This document shows, piece after piece, positions 4,663 to 51,818 of a DNA stretch of 64,000 nt. Source of the stretch: Epinephelus fuscoguttatus. Lineage: Eukaryota > Chordata > Actinopteri > Perciformes > Serranidae. Position 1 is the first letter of the stretch; each line of letters opens with the position of its first letter. The notes below the pieces were generated by a model. That model was not told where the DNA came from. It made no database searches and was given only the letters and a program-made list of their open reading frames with translations. A program made the position numbers and the translations under genes. The DNA lies in NCBI RefSeq assembly GCF_011397635.1, contig NC_064760.1, forward strand, positions 32,817,856 to 32,881,855, given 5' to 3'.

Positions 4663-4826
4663 CAGGGCACACAGGAGGTCGACAGCTTCCAGGATGAGCT
4701 CCTGATGTCCTATTCTGGTGACACCCAGCTCCTCCAGCTCCTGATGGGTGATGTGCAGCAGCTGCTCTCCCCCCATCTGTTCCCGCTCGAAACTCTTCAC
4801 GTACTGCTGGAGACAGTCATCCAGAC
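4663..4826 (-). CDS. cnksr2: cnksr2-like coding exon 2 (rest of SAM domain)
   Basis: The minus-strand exon starts after TCCTCAG and ends before GTCAGTCAG. It supplies residues 22-76 and completes the SAM domain. Open translation continues a few codons into the intron (VSQPVTC), which is not coding because the family sequence continues differently after LLCAL. Joining to exon 1 restores a Gly codon (g|gt) with no frame slip. Confidence 0.9.
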
Positions 4827-49700: not shown

Positions 49701-51818
49701 CCCTAGTTTGATGGGCAAAAGACGGCGCAGCAGCTTTTAGGCACGGTGCCAGTAGCGCTTGTTTTGATCCAAAGGGGGCGTGGGTGTTGTGATGTAAGCC
49801 AGCTTCCATTAACGCACCTGGTCAGCAACAGTACTCAGTTCAGACATCCAAGCAAAGCTCTATTGATAGATTTCCAGCGTCATTAACACCTCGCCACCAG
49901 ACGGTACAGTTACTGTCAGGTAGGATGGACGGTTCAATAGATTAATGCCGGTCGCATTAAATTTTACCTTTGTGCTAGCACGATGGAGACCGTGCTTCAT
50001 TTTTCCACTCGTCAGTGTGAATTTTGGTGTTGCTGACTGAAACTCGTCATTCTGCTCTTAGTCATGAGTCCCACTGCTGTCACTGATCTATTTTTGTTCC
50101 TCTCATCTTGCACACATGATTCAAGGTCTGACCAGTAGTTTGTGTAGAGATGCCTCGCTGCATGCCACAGCCATTCTGAGGTGTTATTTGCGTACCTGTG
50201 GCGTCTGTGTTAGTTTGAACAAGCTTCTTCTTGAACTCAGTTAGGCACCTTTTCTCAGACTGTTTCACCAGTTTGACTCTTTTCTATCAGCTGTAAACAC
50301 ACTGATGTGTGTAACTGAGGAAGTTGTGATTACACAAACACATATCATTGTAACTCAGTCTCTTGACCTTGACTGCCGGCACCATGGCCCTCAGTGTTTG
50401 CTTGCAATTTTGATGATGTATTATTTTTTCCACTTTCTAAGATGTACCTGCACTTGTTAAAGCCCCGGCTTTAGTGCTGCTCCCATTCTGCACATTTGCA
50501 GATGATGACGCGTGTCTGATTCATCTCTGGATAAGTGGGTGGCAGTAGATAAACAAACAAGTGTAGTGCAGTGCAAAGTTGAATAAACTGGATGTCAGCA
50601 TAACTCACTCTGAATCTGAAAAACATGGAAAAATGAATGGATCTGCCTAATTTATTAAGTGGAGGAAAAAATACTTTTTCAAATGAGCTGAGTTGTGGTG
50701 GTGAAATGAGCATCACAGTCTTTTGGCTATGTTAAGTACCACAAACTGACTGATGAAAGAATGCAAACGTACAACACACCAGCAGATACACACCTCATAA
50801 CTGAACTCTTTCAAAGTCATTCAGTCCTTCATTACACTCTTTGAATGAGCACAAATTCAATCATACCAATGTATGAAACAACCTTTAAAATAATTGAACG
50901 GTTTATAATGTAACTCAATGCAACCGCCGACAGCAGCTTGTTCTGGCCACCTGTTAATTAGCTCTCTTCCTGCCAATTTCAGCTGTGTCCATTCATCCCA
51001 TCGTCCTACTATCCCCTGGACGACGGAGTGCCGTTACCCTGCCTTTTAGTCCGTGCAAAATTGATGCAACACTATGGAAAAACATCACCAACTGCCATCA
51101 GTGAATGTCATCTTATTTGCCCTTAGGCTGATGGTAGTCAACAAGGCGAATACCAGCCAATACCGATGAGTGGCCGATAAATCAGTGCATCCCTAGTAAT
51201 TTTACCTTGCAGAACACTGGAGCTGCTGGTCTACCGCTGCCTCATTCAGTTTGTCTGTGCTATTGTTGGACTCATTTTAACCATGGATAACAGCGCTGGG
51301 CTACCCCATGATTGAATTTGCCACATAGCTTTAGCCACAGTAGCTGTAGCCGAAAGCGTATGGGTAGCTGACACATCTAATGCTAATGGTAAGTCAGCAA
51401 GTTAACTTGCAGCTATTTAATTAGAATGAAATTACTTAACGCAACGTGGATAAAACTTAAACAATTGAACATGATTTCTGCCTGAGTCATGTCAGTTAGG
51501 TTTTCATCTGCACTGGTGGTTGTTTACATAGATATAGAAACCATTCTCTTGCTATGAAGAGAGCTCCCATGATCCCATGCTTCTTCACAGCATCATCAGA
51601 GTCTGTTGTTACTGTTTTGATTGAGAGACCTTAGCGACAGAAATTACAAACTGTGCATTTAAAGCCAAGTGTTTCTTTTTGTTGTTTTCCAGGGAGCCAT
51701 GGCTGCCACCTATTCAGCACTGAGCCAGAAGACAAGTCAGACGGTGTTGGAGCCTGTGGCAGCGTCCAGTCTAGCCCAGAGACGCAGCATGAAGAAACTC
51801 ACCTCAACAGACATGTAG
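31713..51818 (+). CDS. rps6ka6: Ribosomal protein S6 kinase alpha-6 (RSK4)
   Basis: 22 coding exons: 31713-31739, 34325-34384, 34488-34604, 34688-34769, 34887-34967, 38230-38309, 39027-39133, 40767-40804, 41098-41240, 41346-41416, 41542-41630, 41868-41932, 42327-42429, 42620-42744, 43697-43819, 44637-44726, 44818-44976, 45062-45223, 45444-45520, 45793-45910, 46277-46417 and 51693-51818. All are GT/AG and in frame, giving 727 residues (human RSK4 745). RSK4 rather than RSK1-3 because of [77 protein letters not shown] and [11 protein letters not shown]. RSKs are cytosolic/nuclear Ser/Thr kinases activated by ERK and PDK1. The N-terminal AGC kinase phosphorylates substrates; the C-terminal CAMK-type kinase is the switch. 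All catalytic motifs are intact. The start MEVNSVSSE is chosen by match to the MEV of human RSK4; the longer mammalian N-terminus is not seen. Confidence 0.96.
34488..41932 (+). CDS. rps6ka6: rps6ka6 exons 3-12: N-terminal AGC kinase domain
   Basis: In 727-residue numbering: Gly-rich loop GQGSFGKV at 62-69, ATP-binding Lys87 (YAMKVLKK), catalytic YRDLKPEN with Asp180, DFG at 198-200, activation-loop Ser214 ([14 protein letters not shown], the PDK1 site), and [23 protein letters not shown]. The subdomain IX motif reads DWWSLGVLM, where I recall Phe or Tyr in mammalian RSKs. Intron 5 (34968-38229) is swollen by nested transposons. Confidence 0.94.
35038..36478. mobile_element. Long-inverted-repeat DNA element in rps6ka6 intron 5, interrupted by another element
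   Basis: Arms of about 200 bp are inverted copies: left 35680-35880 (TTGAAATTGGTCAGGTATTGAG, CTGCAGCTGGCAGCAGTGAAACAGGC, GTCCACTAAAAG, TTTTTGCCACTGACAGG) and right 36240-36450. The left arm is split: its outer part (35038-35100, GGACCCTATTTTCCCATGTTTTTGTGTCTAAG) is separated from the rest by the 35103-35671 insertion. A relative lies at 53140-53400. Confidence 0.75.
35103..35671 (-). mobile_element. Inverted-repeat element with a RecQ-like helicase fragment
   Basis: The termini contain CCTGGAAATCCAGA (35106-35119) and its inverse TCTGGATTTCCAGG (35654-35667). A minus-strand frame (35230-35463) reads [36 protein letters not shown], a helicase N-terminus with Walker A motif PTGYGKS. Only about 70 residues are present, so no working helicase is encoded. 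AATTCA is present on both sides and may be the target-site duplication. Confidence 0.7.
36640..37030 (+). pseudogene. hAT/ZBED-type transposase fragment
   Basis: The frame reads a BED-finger-like start ([25 protein letters not shown]), then a stop in place of the usual Arg, then [29 protein letters not shown] and a second stop. This matches the N-terminal part of fish hAT (ZBED-like) proteins. It has in-frame stops and no catalytic core nearby, so it is dead. Confidence 0.75.
39965..40640. mobile_element. MITE with long inverted repeats in rps6ka6 intron 7
   Basis: The left arm (GGGATAGTTCAGATTTTTTGAAGTGGGG, AGTACTGCCA, GTATTTTAGCCACCTAAAAA) and right arm read in reverse (TTTTTTGAAGTGGGGTTGTATG, AGTACTGCCA, GTATTTTAGTCACCTAAAAA) match over some 200 bp. 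No transposase is present. A stretch near 40255 recurs inverted at about 51220. Confidence 0.75.
42327..42744 (+). CDS. rps6ka6: rps6ka6 exons 13-14: AGC tail and linker with regulatory phosphosites
   Basis: Encodes [14 protein letters not shown], the turn-motif/linker site KDSPGIPPS (Ser356) and the hydrophobic motif FKGFSFVAP (Ser373). In RSKs the C-terminal kinase phosphorylates the hydrophobic-motif serine, which recruits PDK1. The rest of the linker ([19 protein letters not shown]) is divergent, as is usual between paralogues. Confidence 0.93.
43697..46417 (+). CDS. rps6ka6: rps6ka6 exons 15-21: C-terminal CAMK-type kinase domain
   Basis: Gly-rich loop IGVGSYS (414-420), Lys437 (YAVK), catalytic [10 protein letters not shown] with Asp525, DFG at 547-549, the ERK-phosphorylated Thr563 in [14 protein letters not shown], then [23 protein letters not shown] and the autoinhibitory C-terminal region ([16 protein letters not shown]). 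Nothing catalytic is missing. Confidence 0.94.
47520..47980 (-). mobile_element. Decayed Rex3-like LINE fragment
   Basis: GATCATGGGCGAAGGTCTGAACAAAGATCAGCAGTAAATTGAGAGCT aligns with the 3494-3540 part of the Rex3-like copy (AGTAAATTGA common to both), with many substitutions and no open frame. Much older than the 3053-3760 copy. Confidence 0.55.
48640..49335. repeat. Dispersed repeat with internal ~130 bp duplication
   Basis: Two units share YCAAGAAYRCCTTGAGG, a TTGGCACAAATG-type block and CAAGGTCACTTTGA (around 48711-48815 and 48840-48940). A third, weaker echo follows. It ends near GGTTCACGGAGGCAACCGCGAGGC. The class is not certain. Confidence 0.6.
49349..49706. mobile_element. Inverted-repeat MITE (CAGGGCTGGGCAATAT type)
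   Basis: Starts CAGGGCTGGGCAATAT and ends ATATCACCCAGCCCTAG. The subterminal regions (ATATCGCGATATGAGAC; AAATATCATGATG) are also inverted. This is a very common teleost non-autonomous DNA element, apparently complete. Confidence 0.85.
51131..51197. mobile_element. MITE terminus
   Basis: AATACCGATGAGTGGCCGATAAATCAGTGCATCCCTAGT resembles the end of fish hAT-type MITEs (TAGGGATGCACYGAT on the other strand). Only one end is present. Confidence 0.45.
51693..51818 (+). CDS. rps6ka6: rps6ka6 last exon: ERK-docking tail
   Basis: 42 codons including stop, after a 5.3 kb intron. It encodes [10 protein letters not shown], then [17 protein letters not shown], the Leu-plus-basic docking motif that binds ERK, and ends TSTDM. 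The last residues keep the Thr-x-hydrophobic pattern of a class I PDZ ligand, but with Met where mammalian RSKs, as I recall, end in Leu. Confidence 0.94.

Follow-up and report, generated by a model that had tools for sequence, protein, structure and literature searches.

A CNK gene beside hdx and rps6ka6

The window considered here (G000:C9:32817856-32881855, C9 being contig NC_064760.1) is a stretch of 64,000 nucleotides, without any N, from the fish Epinephelus fuscoguttatus, and it carries the first exons of a gene for a CNK (CNKSR) scaffold protein, the homeobox gene hdx and the kinase gene rps6ka6 (RSK4). That a CNK gene sits beside the rps6ka6-hdx pair, with hdx in between, had been proposed in an earlier sequence-only reading and is borne out by spliced models and Pfam; the proposed distance to rps6ka6, 'within 13 kb', is somewhat short, as the coding starts are 14-15 kb apart. 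With a probability of roughly 0.85, the gene is a fourth CNK ohnolog (cnksr4) that arose in the duplications of early vertebrates, survives here and was lost in human. The case for its age and origin is built on computed trees and gene order within this genome, of which 26 contigs (1.05 Gb) were covered by whole-genome searches. Positions without a prefix are in window numbering.

19330-19393, (-): CNK coding exon 1, from spliced alignment, with a GT donor
4663-4826, (-): CNK coding exon 2, the bulk of the SAM domain, from spliced alignment, Pfam and a PDB match
C9:32813853 down to the stop after C9:32758239, (-): the other 24 modelled CNK exons, left of the window
24397-29776, (+): hdx (highly divergent homeobox), modelled in 11 pieces by spliced alignment to human HDX
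24397-24543 with 24796 on, and 26498-26644 with 27381 on, (+): the two hdx homeobox regions, each interrupted by an intron
34325-51815, (+): rps6ka6 (RSK4), 21 coding exons modelled with confidence, both kinase domains included

The CNK gene extends past the left window edge to a TGA after C9:32758239, and spans 79 kb with 26 modelled exons. All 25 modelled introns are GT-AG, given an aligner that requires AG and favours GT above GC, and at least exons 22-24 of the model, in a stretch of low similarity, are uncertain. The modelled protein has 1070 amino acids, with the stop codon following a C-terminal ETHV. Exon 2 by itself matches Pfam SAM_1 at 2.9e-12, its best PDB match being the SAM domain of CNKSR2. 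In the full model SAM_1 (54.9 bits), CRIC (125.7), PDZ (33.5) and PH (57.1), the set by which the CNK family is recognised, occur in a single protein, and between PDZ and PH lies CNK2_3_dom (PF06663; 134.2 bits versus a cut-off of 27), the mark of the CNKSR2/3 type; because all five exceed their Pfam cut-offs, chance is no issue. Relative to the cnksr2 gene on C12, whose exons 1-9 are equal in length to those of the window gene, the ratio of nonsynonymous to synonymous divergence (dN/dS) is 0.06 over 319 codons, with dN at 0.108 and dS, at 1.78, near saturation. The gene is intact and constrained.

Relatives of the window gene

A whole-genome search with the CRIC domain yielded 12 matches, a pair for every one of six CNK loci; such counts are lower bounds.

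C9 (window): the gene described above
C12 and C21: matches to CNK2
C11 and C14:26.66M: matches to CNK3
C14:18.16M: match to CNK1

Having cnksr2 and cnksr3 in two copies each is what the teleost duplication would lead one to expect, and, since the six loci already include a cnksr2 on C12 and another on C21, the gene in the window makes a third of CNK2-like type.

Its relationships were assessed with sequences from this genome, human and, for CNK, fly, in a first alignment of 527 columns and a second of ten rows, to which a C-terminal block, fly CNK and the PH domain of IPCEF1 were added. In aligned blocks of the first, identity to human CNK2 is 0.874 for C12, 0.837 for C21 and 0.763 for the window gene, which is itself at 0.738 to C12 and 0.711 to C21; pairwise, it reaches 76% with human CNK2 over 523 residues. 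The ten-row tree unites human CNK2 with C12 and C21 as (human CNK2,(C12,C21)) and leaves the window gene outside, with 96/89 support (approximate likelihood-ratio test, SH-aLRT, and ultrafast bootstrap, UFBoot); the corresponding node of the first tree has 93.1/89. A firm place inside CNKSR2, named in the sequence-only reading as one of two results that together would count against it, is not what these trees give. By approximately unbiased (AU) tests with all taxa, pairing of the window gene with C12 (p 0.034) or with C21 (p 0.042) is rejected at 5%, and the balanced arrangement ((window,CNK2),(CNK1,CNK3)) is tied best at 0.547, compared with 0.092 for ((window,CNK2),CNK3),CNK1 and 0.012 for ((window,CNK3),(CNK1,CNK2)). 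Joining the window gene to CNK3, with which it shares 65% identity over 362 residues, is disfavoured (0.054). Eight derived sites set it outside CNK2, versus one each for a group of all three fish genes, for a pairing with C12 and for a pairing with C21. In the strict sense it would not be a CNKSR2 orthologue, lying outside the human CNK2-C12-C21 clade in the best trees and linked to rps6ka6 in place of rps6ka3.

That the window gene instead arose from cnksr2 by a teleost-era or lineage-specific duplication, relocated next to rps6ka6 and went on to evolve fast, is unlikely, even though CNK2 is its closest relative and a long branch with 26 further private sites is what rapid change would leave. 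The tests are less decisive here, with the group of all three fish genes at 0.053 (all taxa), nearly and yet not rejected at 5%, and at 0.131 in the first tree, where the pairings with C12 and C21 are at 0.039 and 0.078. When slow taxa only are used the topology is unchanged, and none of the pairing with C12 (0.057), that with C21 (0.075) or the all-fish group (0.102) is rejected; SAM-PDZ columns alone give 0.035, 0.18 and 0.343, respectively, and dropping C21 leaves a poorly resolved tree, with the fly sequence inside CNK2 and the all-fish group at 0.102. The fly root itself is weak (node 34.5/43), and the human CNK and RSK queries were confirmed for residues 1-314 of CNK2 only, which are identical to PDB 9k1l. 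Against such a duplicate, both cnksr2 copies expected of the teleost duplication are already accounted for on C12 and C21, each of which has MAP7 relatives; all taxa reject its pairing with either; the derived sites are 8 to 1 opposed; and it would need a chance landing in an Xq21-like block beside an RSK gene. Sequence evidence by itself thus points to an old origin, though not conclusively.

Less probable still is an old ohnolog sister to CNK1 and not CNK2, with a block history other than ((2,4),(1,3)), a placement the all-taxa test does not reject (0.18) and for which the similarity of the window gene's C-terminal exon, HRVRALRSTLKAK, to HRVRALQSTLKAK of human CNK1 may be cited, since identity is 0.763 to CNK2 versus only 0.422 to CNK1 (over 232 residues), CNK2_3_dom is present, and the RSK tree joins RPS6KA6 with RPS6KA3, not with RPS6KA1.

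The SAM domain is uninformative in this respect. Its residues had been read as a mixture of CNK2-like and CNK3-like states, and the count itself holds: at the 11 columns that differ between human CNK2 and CNK3, the window gene has four states of each kind and three others. As evidence of a mixture it fails, because the C21 cnksr2 gives the same counts (4 of 11 CNK3-like); C12 has none that are CNK3-like, nine that are CNK2-like and two others.

Gene order and the RSK partners

The surroundings carry much of the argument, and the features on either side of the three genes are as follows.

C9:32750344-32750463: apool, an ApoO-family exon over the Pfam cut-off, 7.8 kb from the CNK stop
C9:32748910-32749272: apool, an ApoO-family open reading frame (ORF) just under the cut-off (27.4 versus 31.4 bits)
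C9:32882121-32883224: pou3f4, a one-exon POU-homeodomain gene, right of rps6ka6
C9:32985978: sh3bgrl, an SH3BGR-family exon, right of rps6ka6

The names apool, pou3f4 and sh3bgrl are those we take to apply from position and sequence. The fish order is then apool-CNK-hdx-rps6ka6-pou3f4-sh3bgrl. For human Xq21 a published list runs POU3F4, CYLC1, RPS6KA6, HDX, APOOL, SATL1, ZNF711 (PMC5471966), and SH3BGRL precedes POU3F4 in another (PMC6770680); both are lists of chosen genes, and neither includes a CNK. As the fish order agrees with that of human Xq21, the fish CNK occupies what in human is the gap between HDX and APOOL.

The window rps6ka6 is 84.2% identical to human RPS6KA6 over 736 residues, groups with it among RSK1-4 (node 76.5/75), and exceeds the C21 RSK exons in identity to the human RSK4 query in three of four shared stretches. 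A search with kinase exons had four RSK genes among the 10 matches listed, on C9, at C21:7.40M, at C14:18.06M and at C2:23.06M, and in the RSK tree the C14 gene pairs with RPS6KA1, the C2 gene with RPS6KA2 and the window gene with RPS6KA6. The C21 gene is called rps6ka3 because a 54-residue piece is 88.9% identical to human RSK2 (75.9% to RSK4) and a MAP7 match lies 67 kb away, the tree not being the basis. The RSK tree has the form ((KA3,KA6),(KA1,KA2)), the split supported at 97.7/92, which is the shape of the favoured CNK tree when the partners are taken as RPS6KA3-CNK2, RPS6KA6-window gene, RPS6KA1-CNK1 and RPS6KA2-CNK3. Linkage is at 90 kb for RPS6KA1 with CNK1 and at 5.1 Mb for the C21 RSK with the C21 cnksr2, next to the 14-15 kb of the window pair. 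For human, the assumed positions are 1p36 for CNKSR1, Xp22 for CNKSR2 and 6q25 for CNKSR3 and IPCEF1, and those of RPS6KA1-3, ZFX, APOO and the MAP7 genes are likewise assumed.

Other members of the putative block were sought through their relatives. MAP7 matches occur on seven contigs (C8, C9, C11, C12, C14, C17 and C21), among them all five that carry CNK genes (hypergeometric p 0.0003-0.0005 for 24-26 chromosomes), and ZFX-family matches are at C9:28.05M and C12:25.76M, with a MAP7 match 47 kb from the latter. SH3BGR-family matches number five (C5, C9, two on C11, C17). The window gene is thus part of a paralogous block with an RSK gene and other ohnologs, as would be anticipated of a 2R ohnolog, ApoO and SH3BGR fitting in part.

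Several of these results, like the unrejected trees and the other points conceded above, weigh against that account. The MAP7 matches on C9, C11, C12 and C14 are megabases from the CNK or RSK genes; the genome search gave no SH3BGR match on C14; rps6ka2 on C2 is unlinked to cnksr3 in this genome; and the C21 RSK piece groups with RPS6KA6 and the window gene (71.1/68), not with RPS6KA3. ApoO was set aside as a block marker, since, apart from recovering the C9 gene beside CNK, its second match is on C15 and neither C12 nor C21 is supported.

Origin by way of the early vertebrate duplications nevertheless remains much the best explanation of the window gene. The claim of the sequence-only reading that two rounds of duplication acted on an ancestral RSK-CNK pair and that the fourth CNK persisted beside rps6ka6 is upheld by most within-genome tests, namely the two cnksr2 genes elsewhere, the best trees, the Xq21 order and the match of CNK and RSK trees. 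An ancestral RSK-CNK block would have duplicated twice in early vertebrates, yielding cnksr4, which would have stayed beside rps6ka6 in this fish and has no counterpart in human Xq21 at the equivalent position, between HDX and APOOL. The further claim of loss in mammals stands for human, on the published gene lists and the HDX-APOOL gap, and extends to human only. PMC10272126 recognises CNKSR1, 2, 3 and IPCEF1 as the human CNK genes. No fourth full-length CNK was found in a literature search whose scope excluded most subscription journals and all gene databases, and matches to the name CNK4 appear to concern other genes, chiefly in the cilia literature. Fish databases, we would guess, list the window gene as cnksr2b or similar.

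Docking, likely function and side features

Adjacency to an RSK gene invites a functional explanation. In PMC11984722, CNKSR2 is described as binding RSK1 via a DSVF motif, CNKSR1 as having EDVF elsewhere and CNKSR3 as having none. RSK docking was considered as the reason for the linkage and rejected: no [DE]xVF motif is present in the modelled window CNK, nor in the C12 model, so that by this motif the window model would not be classed as an RSK-binding CNK. With the motif absent, the linkage to rps6ka6 is no proof of a working pair, and is best seen as an inherited position, not a working unit. The kinase itself retains the AKLGM site, with its lysine codon split.

By domain content the window CNK would act like CNK2, the functional steps being those of the family: the SAM and CRIC regions would engage RAF-MEK module partners, membrane placement would fall to PDZ and PH, and the C-terminal ETHV would bind PDZ proteins. 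It is like CNKSR2 in its SAM-CRIC-PDZ-CNK2_3-PH order and ETHV end, and differs in lacking the DSVF of human CNK2 (as does C12) and in adjoining rps6ka6. With CNKSR3 plus IPCEF1 it shares SAM-CRIC-PDZ and the CNK2_3 domain type, the difference being in identity and in the disfavoured joining tree; with CNKSR1, from which its low identity separates it, it shares an RSK neighbour (the CNK1 gene at C14:18.16M is 90 kb from an rps6ka1 exon) and a similar C-terminal exon.

It is probable that there were four early-vertebrate RSK-CNK pairs, that a cnksr4 devoid of the docking motif, perhaps annotated as a duplicate of cnksr2, survives in fish next to rps6ka6, and that the sets of ERK scaffolds differ between fish and mammals. 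If so, a four-part family history is completed, with RSK and CNK moving together, and there is a case of a kinase gene and a scaffold gene of the same pathway remaining side by side. Among the fish genes filed under cnksr2 there may then be both true orthologues and an older paralogue. Both CNKSR2 and the RPS6KA6 region are relevant to X-linked intellectual disability (PMC10272126, PMC6770680), so that fish models need the right orthologue.

As to hdx, several pieces in the middle and at the end of its model are of low confidence. The rejoined homeobox regions score 23.7 and 25.6 bits, both above the 22.9 that Pfam sets for Homeodomain; a Pfam scan of four single exon-frame hdx ORFs gave no match. 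CNK and hdx are head to head, with coding starts 5.0 kb apart, and between these starts are CpG-richer stretches at 19501-19750 and 22251-23000, possibly their promoters. Weak 5′ pieces of rps6ka6 before 34325 differ by model (33327-33368 versus 33539-34145).

Elsewhere in the genome, a late exon of the C12 cnksr2 is doubled (C12:41096307-41096501 and 41112061-41112255), among repeated receptor-like single-exon ORFs. The last exon of this gene was not found on C12 with two queries, and the copy may be without an ETHV tail. A PH exon and C-terminal exons are retained in each cnksr3 copy (C11:31331538, C14:26638280), unlike human, where CNKSR3 is one gene and IPCEF1 another, as would be seen if IPCEF1 were the detached half of CNK3. 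The ApoO-family match on C15 (C15:14350897-14351277) covers profile positions 9-130 of 131 in one open exon and is perhaps an intronless apoo copy. In the rps6ka2 copy at C2:23057259 the glycine loop of the C-terminal kinase domain is altered relative to human RSK2, reading EEVGQTATSVCRRC, so that the C-terminal kinase half may be inactive.

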